Shown: piece by piece, positions 21,640 to 57,642 of the stretch | Layout of the letters: each line of letters starts with the position of its first letter | Position numbering within the stretch: the stretch's first letter is position 1 | Assembly: GCF_012034175.1 (NCBI RefSeq) | Contig: NZ_JAATEJ010000004.1 | Coordinates: 1-64,000 of the forward strand | Direction of reading: 5' to 3' | Length of the DNA stretch: 64,000 nucleotides | DNA from: Actinacidiphila epipremni | GTDB taxonomy: Bacteria > Actinomycetota > Actinomycetes > Streptomycetales > Streptomycetaceae | Made by a program: the position numbers and the translations under genes | Notes under the pieces: model-generated | The model's input: the letters and a program-made list of their open reading frames with translations, nothing else | What the model was told of the DNA's origin: nothing | Database searches by the model: none

Positions 21640-22375
21640 CCACCGGCAGAGGCCGGAAGGGACGGCGTACCCACCCCCATGGCCGGAGACCCGCCAGCGC
21701 AGCCCAAAAGGGACCGCGTACCCCCACCGGCGGAAAGCCGCGAGCGGACGGTGAAAGGGGCCGCTCACCCACCCCCACTGGCGGAAGCCACCAGCGATCG
21801 GCGGCAGGGCCGCGTACCCCATCCACCCCCGCCCCCACGGGCGGAAAGCCGCCAACGGACGGCGAAAGGCGCCGCGAACCCACCCCCACCGGCCGAAGGC
21901 CGCCCGCGGCCGGCGGGAGGGACGGCGTACCTCACCCACCCCCGCCCCCACCGGCGGAAAGCCGCCAACGGACGGCGAAAGGGGCCGCAAACCCACCCCC
22001 ACCGGCCGAAAGCCACCGGTGGTCGGCGGAAGGGGCTGCGTACCTCACCTACCCCCGCCTCCACCGGCGGAAAGCCGTCAACGGACGGCGAAAGGGGCCG
22101 TGAACCCACCCCCACCGGCGAAAGCCACCGGTGGTCGGCGGGAGGGGCTGCGCAACCCACCCTCACCGGCCGAAGGCCGCCCGCGGTCGGCGGGAGGGGC
22201 GGCGTACTCCACCCACCCCCGCCCCCACCGGCGGAGAGTCGCCGGCGGTCGGCGGAAGGGGCCGCGTGCTCCACCCTCACCGGCCGAAGGCCGCCCGCGG
22301 CCGGCGGGAGGGACGGCGTACCTCACCCACCCCCGCCCCCACCGGCGGAGAGTCGCCGGTGGACGGGCGGGAGGG
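21640..22375. repeat. Proline-codon-like tandem repeat array
   Basis: About a dozen imperfect units of roughly 55-65 bp built on CACCCCCACCGGC, GAAAGCC and GGCGGAAGGGGC blocks, with some units alternating. All frames stay open on both strands because of the low complexity. I do not call a gene. The region 21129-22608 holds only these repeats and the palindromic element at 22384. Confidence 0.75.
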
Positions 22376-22383
22376 GGTGATCT

Positions 22384-45141: not shown

Positions 45142-45440
45142 ATGCACGGAGAGCCCCCGACGGCGCGCGAGGGGCACGGGAAGACAGAAAGCCGACGTCT
45201 CACCCGCACGGGTGGCTGGGGGTGGGAACCACCCGCGCCGCAGGCGCGGGGAACCACCCACGTACGGAGAGCCCCCGACGGCGCGCAAGGGGCACGGGAA
45301 AACAGAAAGCCGACGTCCCACTTGCACGGGTGGCTGGGGGTGGGATCACCCCGCGCCGCAAGGCGCGGGCACCACCCACAGGCGGAAAGCCGGCGACGGC
45401 GGCAAGCCCCACAAGAAGACCCGCCCCGCCCGGACGGGCG
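45142..45440. repeat. Dispersed 118-bp intergenic repeat, right copy (two units and a partial)
   Basis: ACGGAGAGCCCCCGACGGCG begins at 45146 and again at 45264, giving a 118-bp period. Each unit contains CAGAAAGCCGACGT, CACGGGTGGCTGGGGGTGGG and a GCGCCGCAGGCGC-like hairpin. It is the inverse of the 21330-21590 block. With the palindrome it fills 44925-45529, where no gene is supported. Confidence 0.75.
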
Positions 45441-50379: not shown

Positions 50380-50453
50380 GCCGCCTTAGCTCAGTTGGCC
50401 AGAGCAACGCACTCGTAATGCGTAGGTCTCGGGTTCGAATCCCGAAGGCGGCT
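50380..50453 (+). tRNA. tRNA-Thr (anticodon CGT)
   Basis: 74 nt. The acceptor stem GCCGCCT pairs with AGGCGGC. The anticodon arm is ACGCA-CTCGTAA-TGCGT with CGT at 50414-50416. The T arm holds GGTTCGAATCC. CCA is not encoded. Its 3' half is the probable integration site of the mobile element whose integrase gene starts the next block. Confidence 0.96.
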
Positions 50454-50458
50454 CCGAG

Positions 50459-50581: not shown

Positions 50582-52174
50582 CTACTTCTTGGGCTTCTTG
50601 CGTTTGCCCTTCTTCTCGGTCCGGGCCTGCGCTTCCCTCGCCTTCTTCGCAGCCTTGCGGGCTTGCTCCGCCTCGGCTTTGCGTTGGAGGGGGACGAGCT
50701 TGGCAGTGGCCTCGGCGGCACGCTTGCCGACCTCGGGGAGGACGCTCTGGTAGATGTCCCGCGTGATCCGGGTGTCGCTGTGGCCGAGGGTGTCGGACAC
50801 GACCTTCACGTCGACGCCGGCGGCGAGCATGAGGGTGGCGGCGCCGTGGCGGAGGTCGTGCAGCCGGATGGGCGGAAGGCCAGAGGCGGCGACCAGTCGT
50901 TCGAAGAGGTCGGTGATCTTGCCGGGGTGCAGCCAGGAGCCGTCCTCCTGGGTGAAGACGAGCCCGGTCTCCACCCAGGCCGAGGCCCATTTCTCCCGGT
51001 CGGCCTCCTGCCGCTCACGGTGCCTCCTCAGTACCTCCACGGTGTCGTCGTCCAGGGCGATTACCCGGAAGCCGCTGTCCGTCTTGGGCTCGGACGTTTC
51101 CACCTGCCAGCCGTGCTGGACGAGTTGGGCGGAGACAGTGAGGGAGTGGGCGTCGAGGTTGGTCTCCGACCAGGGCTGACCGCACGCCTCGCCGCGTCGC
51201 AGGCCGCGGAAGGCGATCAGGTGCCACATCGCGTACAGCCGGTCCTCGGCGACGAAGTCGAGGAATGCGCCGGTCTGCTCTGGTGTCCAGACCATGACGG
51301 GGGAGGGCTTCTCACCGGTCCTGTGCCACTTCGCGACCCGTTCGTCCGTCCACACCAGCGCTTTCGGCTTGCGGACCGGATCGAGTTCGACGTGGGCCGC
51401 CGGGTTGAAGGTGATGATCTGCTGGCTGATGGCGTCGTTGAGAGACGCCCGCAGGGTGGCCTTGATGTGCAGCCGCGTCGCCGGACCGGTCACCCGTCGG
51501 ATCGCGGGCATGGCGTCGATCGCCGTCTTCATCGCCTTGCGGCGCGCACGGTGCGGGGCGCCTTTCCACGGCACTGTGGCCAGTTCGGCCACCGCTGCCT
51601 TCCGCTGGGCGTTCTGTTCCAGGACCTCGGCGTTGGAGTCGGCGATGGCGGTGAACATGTCGCTGAGGTGGCTGACTCGAAGCCGGTCGAGACGAAGGTG
51701 CCCTATACGCGGCTTGAGGTGGATGCGTATGTCGGTCTCGTAGCGGCTGATGCCCGACCTGCGTATGCGCTTCGCGGCGAGCCACTGGTCCAGCCATTCG
51801 CCGACGGTGATCCGCCCGATGAGATCCTGGCCGGACTTCAGCCGACGCCGCGTCTCCTCGACGTCAGGAAGTGGGGTCTTTTCTTCGCTGACTTCCGCCA
51901 GCATGGACGCGATCAGCGCGATGCCCTCGGGGTCGTCCGACTCGGCCAGACCGAGGAGGGCGCGTACGTGGTCGAGGTCGGCTTGAGCGGCCTTGAGCGT
52001 CTCGTAGCCGGCGCGGCTGAAGGAGCGGCGGGAGCCGTCTTCGCGGGGAGGGAGTTCCTGTCGTACGGAGTACGAGCCGTGCTTCCGAGTGGCGAGCTTG
52101 GGGCAGTTCTTGCCGAGGGGTCTGCCGGTTTCGGGGTCGCGGCAGTAGCAGCGGCGGTGAGTGGAGCCCTTCAA
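50582..52174 (-). CDS. int: Tyrosine-recombinase integrase of an integrative element
   Basis: 530 residues. It joins the element to the tRNA-Thr gene. An N-terminal zinc-like CYCRDPETGRPLGKNC is followed by the SAM-like core-binding domain (TVGEWLDQWLAAKRIRRSGI). The catalytic domain has Arg in AFRGLRRGEACG, HxxR in LHDLRHGAATLML, His in LGHSDTRITRDIY and the Tyr in that same motif. The Lys-rich tail (KKGKRKKPKK) is usual. The start is TTG 52174, with AAGGA upstream, overlapping the regulator's stop (TTGA). The gene ends 129 nt from the tRNA. Confidence 0.93.
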   Translation of the reverse strand: MKGSTHRRCYCRDPETGRPLGKNCPKLATRKHGSYSVRQELPPREDGSRRSFSRAGYETLKAAQADLDHVRALLGLAESDDPEGIALIASMLAEVSEEKTPLPDVEETRRRLKSGQDLIGRITVGEWLDQWLAAKRIRRSGISRYETDIRIHLKPRIGHLRLDRLRVSHLSDMFTAIADSNAEVLEQNAQRKAAVAELATVPWKGAPHRARRKAMKTAIDAMPAIRRVTGPATRLHIKATLRASLNDAISQQIITFNPAAHVELDPVRKPKALVWTDERVAKWHRTGEKPSPVMVWTPEQTGAFLDFVAEDRLYAMWHLIAFRGLRRGEACGQPWSETNLDAHSLTVSAQLVQHGWQVETSEPKTDSGFRVIALDDDTVEVLRRHRERQEADREKWASAWVETGLVFTQEDGSWLHPGKITDLFERLVAASGLPPIRLHDLRHGAATLMLAAGVDVKVVSDTLGHSDTRITRDIYQSVLPEVGKRAAEATAKLVPLQRKAEAEQARKAAKKAREAQARTEKKGKRKKPKK

Positions 52175-52866
52175 ATGCTGTCCTTTCCGTCGGGGATATC
52201 GGCAGTGAGCGTTTCGAGCCCTGGTGGCACACTCACCGTTGGGCCGAGGATGCGCTGGATCCGCGAGCGCGTGGTTCGCAGGCTGGCTGCCGCTGCTTTG
52301 AGGCGCTTGATGGCTTGGTCCGCGTCCCGCTCGGCTTCTTCACGTCTCGCAGGATCTGTGGCTCTCCTTGCGGCGTCGTGATGGGACCGCATGTCGTTCC
52401 AGGCGTTGAAGGCGGCGCTCTCCTGGCGGCCCTTCGCGCGGAACGCTCTGACGAGGGCCGCATCCAGGCCGAAGCCGGATTCCCCGGTAAACCAGCTCAT
52501 GGCGTCCCAGGTGGCCGTTGGGTGCTGGAGGGGCAGGCGCTGAACTTCGCTGACATGCCCCAGGGGGTAGATCAGGAGCGCGGGGTGCGTGCCGAGTGCC
52601 TCGGCGAGCACGATGACGTCGACGAGCGGGAGGACCGAGCGGCGCCCGGATTCCATGTTGGCGATGACGTTGCGCGGGATCGGGTGGCCGATCGCGGAGC
52701 AAGCATCTGCCAGTTCCTGTGCGCTCATGCCGCGCTCCTTTCGCCGACGGCGGACCTCGGCAGCGAGGGTCGCCATGACATGAGTCGTCCACTCCGGTAC
52801 GTCGTCGCTCTCCTCCTCGTCCTCGAAGCTGTCCATGTATTCATCGTCAGAACCGACTTGTGTCAC
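52171..52866 (-). CDS. XRE-family regulator of the element
   Basis: 231 residues. The HTH is at ~35-85 (LAAEVRRRRKERGMSAQELA, NVIANMESGRRSVLPLVDV), preceded by an acidic lead (DSFEDEEESDDVPEW). A helical C-terminal half (RREEAERDADQAIKRLKAAA) may oligomerise. It is coupled to the integrase and is likely the element's maintenance repressor. GTG 52866 lies exactly where transcription would begin from the promoter TTCAGA-18-TAATGT, so the mRNA may be leaderless. An inverted repeat covers the start codon. Confidence 0.8.
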   Translation of the reverse strand: MTQVGSDDEYMDSFEDEEESDDVPEWTTHVMATLAAEVRRRRKERGMSAQELADACSAIGHPIPRNVIANMESGRRSVLPLVDVIVLAEALGTHPALLIYPLGHVSEVQRLPLQHPTATWDAMSWFTGESGFGLDAALVRAFRAKGRQESAAFNAWNDMRSHHDAARRATDPARREEAERDADQAIKRLKAAAASLRTTRSRIQRILGPTVSVPPGLETLTADIPDGKDSI

Positions 52867-52875: not shown

Positions 52876-52964
52876 TTAGCTTCGTCAGGATTGTTTTCTG
52901 AAGCCGGGAGATCGAGGACCACACGGTGTTCGCCGAAAGCTTCAGGAAACGAGCGGAGTTGTGC

Positions 52965-53198
52965 ATGGGTGTGGCCGAAACGGCCCGTCCGATGACGAGG
53001 GGAATGAGCCGGACCGAGGTGCTGGCACTGCCGGCAGCGGTGGACCTGGAGACGGCGAACAGGGCGCTGGGCCTGGGCCGGAGCAAGGGCTACGCGTTGG
53101 CCAAGCGCGGTGAGTACCCGTGCCGCGTGCTGCGGCTGGGCAACGCCTATCGGGTGGTGACCGCCGAACTACAGGCCCTGCTCGGCCTGGCGGCGTGA
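52965..53198 (+). CDS. Excisionase-like small HTH protein
   Basis: 77 residues with the MerR/AlpA/Xis-type fold: VDLETANRALGLGRSKGYAL, then AKRGEYPCRVLRLGNAYRV. Such proteins bind att DNA or act as activators for excision or replication. The ATG at 52965 has GGAG 6 nt upstream; the open frame further upstream has no site. It is divergent from the integrase operon and 92 nt before the ATPase gene. Confidence 0.78.
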   Translation: MGVAETARPMTRGMSRTEVLALPAAVDLETANRALGLGRSKGYALAKRGEYPCRVLRLGNAYRVVTAELQALLGLAA

Positions 53199-53290: not shown

Positions 53291-55081
53291 ATGCCCCGTA
53301 CGAATCCAGGCGCCGACGGCGCACCCCCGAGTCCGGCATGGCCGCCGGTGGCGATATCGGGCGGACCAGGCCGGGTGGCCGGCGGACCGCTTGATGCCCG
53401 CGGACCGGTCCCTGAGTGGTCCGCGGATCAGGGGACCACAGCGGGAGCGATCCTGCGGACCAACGGTGGCTGGTCCGCCGCACGGCACGCCGGTCCCGCA
53501 GGGGAACGGACCGCGAGTTCGGAGGCTGAGGACCGGACCGAGGCTGAGCGGTTGGTCCCCGGACCAGCGGTCCGCACGGATCAGGGCACGGACCAAGCTT
53601 GGTCCGCGCAGGTCACGGCCCTGGACGCCGCGGACCATGCTGGTCCGCTAACCGGAACTTCCGGTCAGGGGACCAGCGATGACGACGGCAAGGGACCGGG
53701 CGGTCCGGACCGGGCGGCGGTGGACGACGCCAGCACTGCTGGGGGACCGGGCAGGGGACCAGTTGAAAGGACCGCGGTGGTCCAGGTGCCGTCTGGTCCG
53801 CGCGGACCAGACCAGCCGTCCGCGGACCACCCACAGAGTGAGGGGGCGGGATTGCTGGACGAGTTGCGTGCGGCGGTGGCCCGGTACGTGGTCCCGCCCA
53901 GCCCGGAGGCGCTGGATGCGATCACTTTGTGGATCGCAGCGACCCATCTGCAGCCGGCGTGGCAGCACGCGCCCCGGCTGGCGATCGTCGCGCCGACGAA
54001 GGCGTGTGGGAAGTCCCGGCTGCTGGACGTGCTGCACGAGACGGTCCACGACCCGTTCATCACGGTCAACTCGACCCCCGCGGCGATCTTCCGGTCGATC
54101 ACCGAACAACCGCCGACGCTGCTGGTGGACGAGGCCGACACGATCTTCGGCAGCGTGAAGGTGGCGGAGAAGAACGAGGAGATGCGGGGTCTGCTCAACG
54201 CGGGGCATCAGCGCAACCGCCCGACGACGCGGGTGGTGGGGCCGGAGCACAAGCCGGTGAAGTTCCCCACCTTCGCCATGGCCGCCATCGCCGGGATCGG
54301 TGACCTGCCGGACACGATCATGGACCGGGCGGTGGTGATCCGGATGCGCAAGCGTCTGGAGAGCGAGCACGTCGACGACTTCCGCACGCGTACCGACGTG
54401 CCGTTCCTTCAAGCGGTGCGGGCCAGGCTGGCCGACTGGCTGGGCCCGCAGTTGGAGGCGGCGTCGGACCTGGTGCCGACGATGCCGGTCCGGGACCGGG
54501 CCGCAGACACGTGGGAACCGCTGGTCGCCGTCGCCGATCTGGCGGGAGGTGCCTGGCCGCAGCGTGCCCGGACGGCGTGCCGGACGATGACAGACCGGGA
54601 GAAGGGCAACGAACACGATCGGGGCGCCAAAATCCGAATCCTGGTCGACATCCGGGCCGCGTTCGCCCGTAACGGAGATCCGAGGCTCATGGCCACCGAG
54701 ACGCTGCTGCACGCTCTGAACTCCGACCCGGAAGCGCCCTGGCACGAACACGGCCCGGTCGGACTGACCGCCCGCAAGCTGCAGATGCTGCTGGCGGACT
54801 ACGAGATCCACTCCGCCAACCGCCGTTTCTCCGAGAGCACGCAGCGCCGCGGCTACGCCCGGGCGGACTTCACCGACGCCTGGAACCGGTACTGCCCCGC
54901 GCCTGAGTCCGTCGCCTCGGCGGCTTCAGGCGTCCACTCAGCTGCACCGCCGGTAGGGGCCGAACGCAGCGAATCTGAGGCTCGGTCCCGGCCGTCTCCG
55001 CCACAGGCGACCCAGCGCAGGGGACCGGGTTCGGGTCTGCCGCTGGCGCCCCTGGTGCCTGGTACGGGTCCGCGCCGCTGA
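53291..55081 (+). CDS. DUF3631 ATPase/replication-type protein of the element
   Basis: 596 residues. The C-terminal ~380 residues form a P-loop domain of the DUF3631 family found on actinobacterial plasmids and integrative elements. The nucleotide motif is IVAPTKACGKSRLLDVLHE, Walker B is TLLVDEADTIFG, and AGHQRNRPTTRVVGPEHKPV and FAMAAIAGIGDLPDTIMDRA follow. A replication or DNA-processing role is inferred. The first ~180 residues are low complexity and encoded by DNA crowded with GGWCC sites, so this part may be shaped by the DNA signal. ATG 53291 has GAGGAG upstream. Confidence 0.75.
   Translation: MPRTNPGADGAPPSPAWPPVAISGGPGRVAGGPLDARGPVPEWSADQGTTAGAILRTNGGWSAARHAGPAGERTASSEAEDRTEAERLVPGPAVRTDQGTDQAWSAQVTALDAADHAGPLTGTSGQGTSDDDGKGPGGPDRAAVDDASTAGGPGRGPVERTAVVQVPSGPRGPDQPSADHPQSEGAGLLDELRAAVARYVVPPSPEALDAITLWIAATHLQPAWQHAPRLAIVAPTKACGKSRLLDVLHETVHDPFITVNSTPAAIFRSITEQPPTLLVDEADTIFGSVKVAEKNEEMRGLLNAGHQRNRPTTRVVGPEHKPVKFPTFAMAAIAGIGDLPDTIMDRAVVIRMRKRLESEHVDDFRTRTDVPFLQAVRARLADWLGPQLEAASDLVPTMPVRDRAADTWEPLVAVADLAGGAWPQRARTACRTMTDREKGNEHDRGAKIRILVDIRAAFARNGDPRLMATETLLHALNSDPEAPWHEHGPVGLTARKLQMLLADYEIHSANRRFSESTQRRGYARADFTDAWNRYCPAPESVASAASGVHSAAPPVGAERSESEARSRPSPPQATQRRGPGSGLPLAPLVPGTGPRR
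53363..53828. repeat. Cluster of thirty GGACC/GGTCC motifs
   Basis: Thirty GGWCC sites in 466 bp, inside the start of the DUF3631 gene. They fall in all three codon frames. Many form palindromes: GGACCGGTCC at 53402, GGACCAAGCTTGGTCC at 53590, GGTCCGGACC at 53702, GGTCCGCGCGGACC at 53795. A cis-acting origin or transfer/binding locus is the likeliest explanation. Confidence 0.7.
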
Positions 55082-55306
55082 TCGACGCGGACCCTCATCA
55101 ACCCGCATCACCCGTCCCGTCGCAGGTCAGCGCGGGACGGGTGGCGGTGCCGTGACGGGTCGACCCGTACCACGACGGCAACCCGTAACTGCTCTGACCA
55201 GCCACGCAACGAGTGGGACGGGTTGCTGATCCTTCACGGCAGCCGGATCGCCCAGCCTTAAGGAGGCATCACGAAAGAGAAGAAGCAGCCGCAGATCCCT
55301 GCCCGA

Positions 55307-55951
55307 GTGGGAGCAAGCTGGAGCGGTCGACACTCCTTTCGGGTTTCGTCCGCGCTTGCCTCCGCCCCGGCGGGGGCGGAGGGGGCCCGGCGCCAGGGGG
55401 CACCGGACGAGATGGGTGAGGCCGAGCGCGGCCTCAACCAGGACGCTGCGCGCCCGTCGGTCGGCGGGGTCTGCCCGTCCTGCGGCCAGCACCTGCCCCT
55501 CGCCCCGGCCGAGCCGTTGTCTGCGCGCGATCCCGCTGATCTGCCGCTGCTCGCACCGCTCTACCGCAAGCGCACCCGGGAGACCCGCGACCGGGTGCGC
55601 AGCGTCCGGTTCACTCCGACCGCGGAGGCGGTGATCGAGGCCGCAGCTCAAGTCCGGGGTCAGTTCTTCGCCGGTTACGTCGGCGATGTCGCCTACGCGC
55701 ACGCCCTTGGTCGGACCGGCACCGGTGCCGGGAGTCCTGAGGACGACCCGGCACGCGCGCTCGTGGAGGTGGTCGAGCGGCTGATTGCGCAGCTGCGGCG
55801 GACGGGCAACAACCTGAACCAGATCACCCACGCCCTCAACTCGGGCGTCGTCCCCGACCACGCCGAGCAGGTCCTGGCCCGGGTCGAGCAGACGGTGGAG
55901 AACGCGTTCACGCTTCTCGACGGGTTCGTCGGCAAGCAGCAGGCGAGCTGA
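55307..55951 (+). CDS. mobC: MobC-like relaxosome accessory protein
   Basis: 214 residues. The C-terminal half is typical MobC: VRSVRFTPTAEAVIEAAAQV, ALVEVVERLIAQLRRTGNNL and LNQITHALNSG. It helps the relaxase open and hold the nick site. A possible zinc ribbon (CPSCGQHLPL) lies in the N-terminal part. The annotated start is GTG 55307, which lacks a ribosome site. A perfect AAGGAGG at 55260-55266 instead points at in-frame ATC 55268 or ACG 55271. The gene overlaps the relaxase by one base (TGATG). Confidence 0.8.
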   Translation: MGASWSGRHSFRVSSALASAPAGAEGARRQGAPDEMGEAERGLNQDAARPSVGGVCPSCGQHLPLAPAEPLSARDPADLPLLAPLYRKRTRETRDRVRSVRFTPTAEAVIEAAAQVRGQFFAGYVGDVAYAHALGRTGTGAGSPEDDPARALVEVVERLIAQLRRTGNNLNQITHALNSGVVPDHAEQVLARVEQTVENAFTLLDGFVGKQQAS

Positions 55952-57642
55952 TGGTTCCTGACGTCTCCACCGGCTCGCACACCGCCGGCTTGCTCTACTA
56001 CCTGTTCGGCCCCGGTCGGCGTGACGAGCACGCCGATGCGCACATCGTCGCTGCCTGGGACATGGCCGGGGCCCCCGACCCCGGCCGCGACCCGACCGCC
56101 ACCATCGGCCGGCTCGCTGATCGTCTCGACCTGCACGCGCGGCTGCGGGCGAAGGAGACCGGGACGATGCCGGCCAAGCACGTCTGGCACTGCCCGGTGC
56201 GCACCGCGCCCGGCGACCGCTACCTCACCGACACCGAGTGGGCGGAGGTCGCCCGCCGAATCGTCGCCGCCACCGGCATCGCCCCCGACGGCGACGACCT
56301 GGCGTGCCGGTGGATCGCCGTCCGGCACGCCGACGACCACATCCACATCGCCGCCGTCTCGGTGCGCGCCGACGGCCGCCGCGCCCGCACCCACCGCGAC
56401 GGCTGGCGCGCCCAAGCCGCATGCCGCCGGATCGAGACCGAGTTCGGGCTGCGTCAGCTCAACCCCGGTGACATGACCGCGCCGAAGACCCCCACCAGCG
56501 CCGAACGCGCCAAGGCCGAACGCCTGGGCCGGCCGGTGACGAGCCGGGAGTGGCTGCGGGAGCAGGCGTACGCCGTGCTGGCCGCGGTCGGCAGCGAGCA
56601 GGAGTTCTTCGACGTCCTGGGCAGCCTGGGCATCACCGTCAACAAGCGCCTCGGACCCAAGAGCGGGGAGGTCACCGGCTACAGCCTCGCCGCCCCCGGC
56701 GACACCAACACCAGCGGTGAACCGGTCTTCTACGGCGGGTCGAAACTCGCCCCCGACCTGTCCATCATCCGCATCCGCGAAACCCTCACCCGCCCCGGAC
56801 AAGCCCGCGCCCGCCGGACCCGGCCCCACCCCCGTGAGAGCTGGCAGCACGCCGACACCGCTCTGCGCCACGCCGCCCAGACCCTCGACAGCGATGACGA
56901 CGCCGCAGCCCAGGCCCACCTGGCCGCCTACAGCACCATGCTCCACAACACCGCCCTCAACGCCCCGCCCGCCTACCGCGCCGAACTGCGCGCCGCCGCC
57001 ACCGCCTTCAACCGCGCCCGCCGCTCCGCGATCCGCGCCGACCACCAGAAAGCCACCGCCCTACGCCAAGCGGCGAAGGACCTCACCTACGCCTCGCACG
57101 ACGCCGGCGGCCTGCCCGTCGCGGTGATCGCCACCCTCGTCCACCTGGCCGTCGCCGCCACCCGCTGGTACGAGCAACGCGGCTACCAGCAGCAAGCAGC
57201 CGCCGCCCACCGCACGCTCACCCACCTCCACGCCGGCTACCGCCACGCCGCCGCCCCCGTCCTGGCCGACCTGGCCCGCCGCACCCCACACCCCCAGACC
57301 ACCCAGCGCCTGGAAGCCGCCGTCCGCCAGGCCGTCCCCCAGCACGCCGACCGCATCCTCACCGACCCCACCTGGCCCGCCCTGGCCACCACCCTCGCCC
57401 AAGCCGAAACCGCCGGCCACCACCTCCCCACCCTCCTCCACCAAACAGCCACCGAACGCGAACTCCACACCGCCCACTCACCCGCCGAAACCCTCACCTG
57501 GCGCATCACCACCACCCCCAACCACCGAGCCACCGCAGCCCGAGCCCGCACGACCACCGGAGCGGCACCCTCCGGCCCCAGCCCAGCGGCGGCATCCCCG
57601 GTGAACGCTTCGCCCGATATGGGGTCGCAGCGTCACCGGTAA
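55951..57642 (+). CDS. mobA: MobA/VirD2-type relaxase
   Basis: 563 residues. It nicks the transfer origin and pilots the strand. The relaxase domain spans ~1-200. The three-histidine metal motif is in RHADDHIHIAAVSV, with KHVWHCPVRTAPGDRYLTD before it. A candidate nicking Tyr is in the TAGLLYYLFGPGRRDE segment. The C-terminal 250 residues are helical (Ala/His/Arg-rich) and may bind coupling protein. It is coupled to MobC by a one-base overlap. Using a MOB relaxase is unlike most Streptomyces AICEs, which move double-stranded DNA with TraB. Confidence 0.88.
   Translation: MVPDVSTGSHTAGLLYYLFGPGRRDEHADAHIVAAWDMAGAPDPGRDPTATIGRLADRLDLHARLRAKETGTMPAKHVWHCPVRTAPGDRYLTDTEWAEVARRIVAATGIAPDGDDLACRWIAVRHADDHIHIAAVSVRADGRRARTHRDGWRAQAACRRIETEFGLRQLNPGDMTAPKTPTSAERAKAERLGRPVTSREWLREQAYAVLAAVGSEQEFFDVLGSLGITVNKRLGPKSGEVTGYSLAAPGDTNTSGEPVFYGGSKLAPDLSIIRIRETLTRPGQARARRTRPHPRESWQHADTALRHAAQTLDSDDDAAAQAHLAAYSTMLHNTALNAPPAYRAELRAAATAFNRARRSAIRADHQKATALRQAAKDLTYASHDAGGLPVAVIATLVHLAVAATRWYEQRGYQQQAAAAHRTLTHLHAGYRHAAAPVLADLARRTPHPQTTQRLEAAVRQAVPQHADRILTDPTWPALATTLAQAETAGHHLPTLLHQTATERELHTAHSPAETLTWRITTTPNHRATAARARTTTGAAPSGPSPAAASPVNASPDMGSQRHR

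Follow-up and report, generated by a model that had tools for sequence, protein, structure and literature searches.

Why should one short DNA motif be packed into the beginning of a protein-coding gene? The gene, repAM, encodes a predicted replication initiator, and the motif, GGWCC, crowds the part that codes for its N-terminal linker. In the initial annotation of the window (the whole 64-kb stretch of DNA analysed here), an origin, an oriT-like locus or a protein-binding locus embedded in coding DNA had been suggested for this place.

An Array of Sites in Coding DNA

A scripted count gave exactly 30 GGWCC sites within the 466 bp at positions 53363-53828 (array 1), the number previously counted by eye, and the earlier expectation of about two sites agrees with the ~2.2 calculated from base composition. 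All three codon frames are used (12/9/9), as had been noticed. A scan with a 50-bp step found this to be the GGWCC-densest interval of its size across the 64 kb. Since the full window contains 271 GGWCC sites, below the shuffle mean of 318, the excess in array 1 is local. An extra site lies beyond the array, at 53890.

For the codon controls, with 5000 trials each, we used the 546 bp between the start codon and the ATPase domain. Against the 30 sites observed, the mean was 4.5 for dinucleotide shuffles, 5.1 for codon shuffles, 10.1 for synonymous recoding with the codon usage of the element, and 13.9 (maximum 23) for shuffling of the gene's own synonymous codons. None of the four controls reached 30 in any of the 5000 trials, including the codon shuffle, which had been put forward as a possible refutation. 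Since the synonymous controls gave 10-14 sites, the encoded peptide accounts for part of the excess, but not for 30. The previous argument that the protein cannot be the cause is therefore right for the full count and too strong for the 10-14 sites that the peptide explains.

The preferred site is the asymmetric GCGGACCR, found on both strands, rather than the GGWCC palindrome, and the base after GGACC is A or G in 95% of 175 sites from six elements. Site spacing in array 1 is irregular. Perfect palindromes had also been reported; these are real, up to 18 bp long (CGGACCAAGCTTGGTCCG near 53589 and CTGGTCCGCGCGGACCAG near 53793, found by eye), but the unit itself is asymmetric and its orientation mixed. 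Two inverted site pairs, 53590/53601 and 53632/53642, occupy 53590-53646 with a start spacing of 11-31-10. The GC content of array 1 is 0.70-0.75, and the lowest value near the arrays, 0.61, is at 55200-55349, after a second array described below. No AT-rich stretch of the kind usual in iteron origins was found in array 1, which may count against reading it as an array for the initiator.

The Island and Its Initiator Gene

The surroundings of repAM suggest an integrated mobilizable island. A tRNA-Thr(CGT) gene found by ARAGORN (50380-50455, + strand) is the probable left attachment site. Its 24-bp 3' end is repeated identically at contig positions 82407-82430, outside the window, according to a pattern search, which suggests an island of ~32 kb; a one-mismatch copy lies at 88793-88816. 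The tRNA gene is followed by a tyrosine integrase (50582-52174, - strand; Pfam Phage_integrase, E 2e-18), an XRE-type HTH regulator (52171-52866, - strand; Pfam HTH_31, E 1.7e-9) and a small 90-aa protein (52926-53198, + strand), which is excisionase-like by position only, has no Pfam family and matches phrog_32619 (E 8e-8), a group of unknown function; several relatives that bear the array have no match to it. Downstream of repAM, on the + strand, are mobC (55307-55951; Pfam MobC, E 2.9e-8) and the mobA relaxase (55951-57642; Pfam Relaxase, E 5e-10). The integrase and the tRNA attachment site are as in an AICE. The AICE transfer protein is not represented on the island's contig, where none of the genome's nine FtsK_SpoIIIE matches falls.

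Some other features of this genome were recorded. Beyond the window, at ~70000-80200 of the same contig, the island carries two HsdM-type genes, HsdS and HsdR, a GmrSD-type gene and an AAA ATPase (L170), a type I restriction-modification set that is probably a defence cluster. A second RepAM with 45% identity and no GGWCC cluster (contig C90, 43616-47670; L143) lies near an FtsK-type match and may belong to a helper element. Within the window, long imperfect tandem arrays with units of ~113 and ~118 bp occupy 21720-22376 and 45146-45406.

The repAM gene itself (53291-55081, + strand) encodes an N-terminal linker, a P-loop ATPase part and a C-terminal DUF3631 domain, the last matching the full length of the Pfam profile (1-182 of 182) over residues 351-534 with E 7.2e-67. 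The sites of array 1 sit in the linker-coding DNA. By family, the predicted product is a replication initiator of the RepAM/DUF3631 type, a name taken from PMC3218068; according to that paper, RepAM has been shown to be responsible for autonomous replication of the AICE pMEA300 and is predicted to work as a rolling-circle initiator.

In an AlphaFold2 model of RepAM built from 51 sequences, the ATPase part is of low confidence, while a C-terminal winged-helix arrangement is mostly of high confidence. The winged-helix part (model residues 284-352, encoded at 54686-54892, + strand) has pLDDT values of 79-96 in 10-residue blocks, dropping at the very end, and is a candidate DNA-binding domain. This modelled layout of ATPase plus winged helix would favour an initiator array. 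Foldseek with the model returned no match up to E 0.001; candidates that were re-examined included MCM, ORC, SCCmec Cch, SaPIBov1 Rep and PriRep1 with Z values of ~7-9, near background for such searches according to the tool. Among solved structures searched by sequence, a single match to bacterioferritin (E 0.2) was taken as chance.

Conservation of the Sites and of the Linker

Within the genus, 24 of 35 genomes have RepAM homologs (E 1e-30; the genome of the window is counted), and so do 114 of 394 genomes drawn from the family (E 1e-100; own genome and genus counted). Named relatives are mostly Streptomyces, Actinacidiphila, Kitasatospora and Streptacidiphilus. Counting GGWCC in homologous DUF3631 genes had been proposed as a check, and the close homologs, 85-98% identical in the ATPase domain, carry 22-32 sites at the same place.

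Conservation of the DNA motif far exceeds that of the linker peptide. Linker protein identity among six GGWCC-type elements is only 38-69%, and aligned GGWCC sites were kept in 502 of 766 ordered comparisons (66%), against 122 of 885 (14%) for other 5-mers of SSWSS form in the same elements; both numbers pool every ordered pair of the six and are non-independent. For one element, L141, whose repAM frame is interrupted in the assembly, the alignment was limited to the portion that reads in frame with the ATPase domain. Depending on the pair, about one quarter to one half of the conserved sites have an altered residue in the overlapping codons. All four sites of the inverted pairs at 53590-53646 are kept in five of the six elements. 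Site turnover is also visible: of 60 aligned positions, 5 are occupied in all six elements and 20 in one only. The second proposed check, that the motif stays while the protein diverges, thus came out positive, and the outcome named as contrary, amino acids kept and motif lost, is the opposite of what the six elements show. In L141, the GGWCC sites carry on across the interrupted start of the reading frame.

The palindromes could also point to structure in RNA or single-stranded DNA, in which hairpins formed by inverted copies would control the translation of repAM or work on displaced single strands. The array region does fold more stably than its dinucleotide shuffles (z -5.6), the 18-bp palindromes fit such a role, and z values remain at -1.6 to -3.4 for six arrays when the core sites are kept and the remainder is shuffled; in L138, the result was almost the same whether or not the sites were kept. 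We nevertheless consider this explanation quite improbable, since what is kept is one fixed asymmetric sequence, which favours protein binding, since palindrome centres vary among relatives, and since the sites of the GGWCC clade are biased to one strand (119/48). Two weak Rfam matches, neither in the array and both below the gathering score, gave array 1 no RNA family identity.

Linker Motifs in Other RepAM Lineages

Other RepAM lineages bear their own array at the same place in the linker, with TGACCGG or GGGGACCG as the motif. In a sister group, TGACCG occurs 7-12 times (21 in one outlier), and in a more distant group GGGGACC occurs 7-18 times. The consensus sites of the lineages are GCGGACCR, RCTGACCGG and CGGGGACCG; they share a GACC core and occur on both strands in mixed orientation (119/48 in the GGWCC clade, as above, and 70/82 and 99/72 elsewhere).

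Linkers were tested with an unsupervised best-6-mer count against shuffles at a threshold of 0.01, with 300-bp stretches inside the ATPase domain as controls (n = 118). Significant arrays were found in 35 of 115 linkers and in 0 of 118 control stretches, the loci being a non-random sample: 80 were the top matches from a single scan, 20 (L147-L166) were selected among the family-genome matches because their open frames are long, and L013/L059, L016/L091 and L121/L166 are duplicates. The 35 loci comprise 6 of GGWCC, 15 of TGACCG, 13 of GGGGACC and 1 of CCGGACCG type. Since the other 80 linkers have no significant array at 0.01, and L063 and L065 lack one although they lie inside the array-bearing part of the RepAM tree, array 1 is not required for RepAM generally.

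Outside the window's family, only 1 of 12 testable linkers at class level was significant at 0.01, and weakly (L188, where CCGCCG is repeated five times within 141 bp). Among the 30 class-level loci as a whole, significance was reached by 4 of the 21 linkers that could be tested: L188, the window and two GGGGACCG-type genes from the main set.

The distribution of the three motif types over the RepAM tree takes 3 changes, whereas shuffled types take 15.6 on average, and part of the 3 comes from the labelling of L158, which was counted as GGWCC type by rule and has the motif CCGGACCG, being placed among GGGGACCG rows. The trees are of the quick kind, with long branches that include L165, L164 and L146. 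Agreement with the tree is what linkage alone would produce for an array located within repAM.

These lineages also bear on another explanation, a by-product of a low-complexity linker or of a repeat expansion that happens to use codon pairs resembling GGACC. Codon content does explain part of the count, as the synonymous controls above indicate, and frame use is uneven elsewhere (TGACCG 3/81/66, GGGGACC 82/23/66). For TGACCG, one codon frame is almost empty on both strands (3 of 81 reverse copies). A forward copy in that frame would create an in-frame TGA stop; since reverse copies shun it too, the TGACCG-type peptide keeps some constraint. On the other hand, array 1 uses all three frames with irregular spacing, sites are kept where residues change, and at 33 of 34 array loci none of 1000 shuffles of the locus's own synonymous codons reached the observed count (6 of 1000 did at the remaining one, L037). 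A mere by-product is therefore very improbable.

A few related arrays and genes lie in other settings. In L154 and L155, CGGACCG occurs 13 and 11 times, with every frame used, at +1387 to +2295, inside the gene after repAM (DUF2637-type by match), so that an array can occupy another gene. On the plasmid NZ_CP108973.1 (L144), seven GGTGTCA/TGACACC copies lie in ~90 bp, ~2 kb upstream of the DUF3631 domain; the same heptamer is given for the clt repeat of pWTY27 in PMC3583192. In the phage collection searched, the sole match was a DUF3631-like protein with 39% identity in a record named Pseudomonas phage Phipami28 (PV029746.1, 31485-32510).

Genes That Accompany the Array

The genes that accompany the array were compared among the GGWCC-type elements. 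The window and L134 match the window's integrase, XRE, HTH90, mobC and mobA, and L142 has matches to integrase, XRE and HTH90, with mobC and mobA unmatched. L139-L141 have a very different integrase (~25% identity), and XRE, HTH90, mobC and mobA are unmatched. Since these modules are swapped or unmatched without loss of the array, the array is independent of them. HTH90 and XRE were rejected as partners: neither is matched in L139-L141, with their divergent integrase, and both occur in relatives that have no array. MobA was disfavoured by its own tree, in which 13 GGGGACCG-type elements with one motif have MobA proteins from several separate branches. The genomes G005, G016 and G032 each hold both a GGWCC-type and a TGACCGG-type element, so a narrow-specificity host factor is unlikely and a binder encoded by the element is favoured. 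Within the partial annotation, every array bearer shares RepAM and no other candidate.

The same comparison bears on transfer, the mobilization half of the earlier proposal. Here array 1 would be a clt- or oriT-like locus, bound by MobC or by a helper FtsK/TraB translocase and mobilizing the island. The mobC-mobA genes lie downstream of the array, the second RepAM element on C90 has an FtsK-type match in the same genome, and elements with a DUF2637 gene bear a small TGACCGG cluster directly before mobC. Streptomyces clt loci are, according to PMC3583192, repeat clusters that may extend into a gene. In addition, the winged helix of RepAM alone matches the pCW3 relaxosome accessory protein (5vfy, 5vfx; Z 7.4 and 7.1), which has also been solved with oriT DNA, but this match involves a common fold. 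Against a transfer locus, the array is not tied to the element's transfer gene, as would be seen for clt or oriT: mobC/mobA matches are absent in four of the six GGWCC-type elements in the DNA examined (one with 505 bp downstream), and arrays persist across different MobA types. The absence of mob matches weighs little where the downstream stretch is short, as in L139 and in loci with only 0.2-1.5 kb. The lack of an FtsK_SpoIIIE match on the island's contig also speaks against transfer, as do mixed-orientation sites over ~450 bp, given that clt loci have been described as short clusters of direct repeats. The oriT reading of array 1 is disfavoured on these gene and motif comparisons, and a transfer locus appears unlikely to us, though a site served by a helper in trans would still agree with them.

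Of the previous description of the gene as one for replication or mobilization of an element, the RepAM initiator stands and the mobilization link is unsupported. An origin remains plausible inside an initiator gene, without its oriT variant, and a locus of protein-binding type inside a coding region is well supported by a motif that outlasts the linker protein, lies in the repAM gene and is lineage-specific.

In L083 and L110, at ~+2465 to +2515 as counted from where the RepAM domain begins, the cluster before mobC consists of four TGACCGG copies with identical spacing (20, 14, 16), a possible mobC operator or oriT element.

A Second Array Downstream of repAM

Seven ACGGGT/ACCCGT sites (array 2) occupy 55064-55223, at the end of repAM and just 3' of it. 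Other RepAM loci have clusters of ACGGCA, ACGAGT, CGGGTC or CGCTAC, among others, at this place; downstream clusters are significant in 73 of 118 loci at 0.05 and in 46 of 118 at 0.01. These clusters resemble classical iterons and make array 2 a better candidate for them than array 1.

A downstream array is significant in 14 of the 35 loci with a linker array compared with 59 of 83 others (p 0.002, loci treated as independent; the others include 3 of the 118 linkers that were too short for the array test), and in 8 of 29 when the GGWCC clade is left out (p 6e-5, on the same treatment). Since the downstream array is rarer where a linker array exists, array 1 might partly stand in for array 2. 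This simple replacement fails in the GGWCC clade, where both arrays are strong.

In an informal comparison, the recognition helix of the winged helix does not track array 1. It resembles the array 2 motif, loosely, which counts against RepAM as the binder of array 1. Helices like ARGLQLLLKDY are common to TGACCGG-type RepAMs and to RepAMs without array 1. The link to array 2 is loose too, since PRGLQLLLKDY is shared by L066 and L068, yet the downstream motif there is ACGAGT.

The many short sites in mixed orientation are reminiscent of the arrays of partition or handcuffing systems. By this likeness, array 1 might be an accessory locus of plasmid type, a centromere, incompatibility or copy-control array whose binder is another protein of the element or the host, and the helix that does not follow array 1 would agree with it. 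However, within the partial annotation no other element gene was found in all array bearers, and the genomes with two array types speak against a single host factor, so that we hold an accessory locus with a binder other than RepAM to be rather unlikely.

Proposed Role of the Array

Taken together, we read array 1, with middling confidence, as ~30 candidate GCGGACCR sites, placed in linker codons, for a sequence-specific protein that the element encodes, probably RepAM itself. As in iteron-type origins, a short motif is repeated beyond chance in and beside an initiator gene. RepAM multimers would load on array 1, alone or with the downstream ACGGGT array, and the loading would start or limit replication of the excised element, the array serving as an origin, copy-number or incompatibility locus. 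RepAM bound there could form or regulate a replication complex, like the O protein inside lambda gene O, and the amino-acid sequence of the weakly constrained N-terminal linker would be largely a by-product.

More tentatively, and with some doubt on our side, the initiator linker as a whole may be a by-product of its recognition array, so that gene and origin form one unit and changes of motif give rise to new, mutually compatible replicon types. If true, the changes between GCGGACCR, TGACCGG and GGGGACCG would let several such islands share one host. The locus is a clear case of selection on DNA sites shaping a long protein linker. Array 1 is also a candidate cis-acting site for the poorly studied RepAM replicons of actinobacterial islands, and if RepAM binds it, the differences in motif between lineages offer a direct test of initiator specificity and compatibility.

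Comparison with Known Systems

Within the literature searched, mostly without subscription papers, DUF3631 was found only in PMC3218068, so earlier reports may exist; among the matches listed, no title dealt with the origin of RepAM or pMEA300, and the word iteron does not occur in the available text of PMC3218068. As in the replication modules of pMEA300-type AICEs, the gene belongs to the RepAM (DUF3631) initiator family (PMC3218068), whereas the island carries mobC-mobA and its contig lacks an FtsK-type match.

In Streptomyces theta plasmids of the pWTY27 type, repeats in both orientations are bound by Rep in a non-coding 300-bp stretch by the rep gene (PMC3583192). Array 1 shares the short repeats, their two orientations and the location at a rep gene, but it lies in coding DNA, and array 2 resembles these iterons more.

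In-gene origins and in-gene binding sites are already known, from lambda O and SpdA2/sps. SpdA2 of the Streptomyces plasmid pIJ101 has its binding site, sps, inside its own spdA2 coding region, as a palindrome with a role in stability (PMC4170104). The site in the coding region of a candidate DNA-binding protein is common to both cases, while array 1 consists of 30 sites in an initiator gene instead of one palindrome. The phage lambda ori lies inside the initiator gene O, as four 19-bp iterons beside an AT-rich segment (PMC4488673). Here too, the repeats are within the coding sequence of the initiator gene, with binding predicted; unlike lambda ori, array 1 has ~30 short sites, GC-rich and in mixed orientation, with motifs specific to each lineage.
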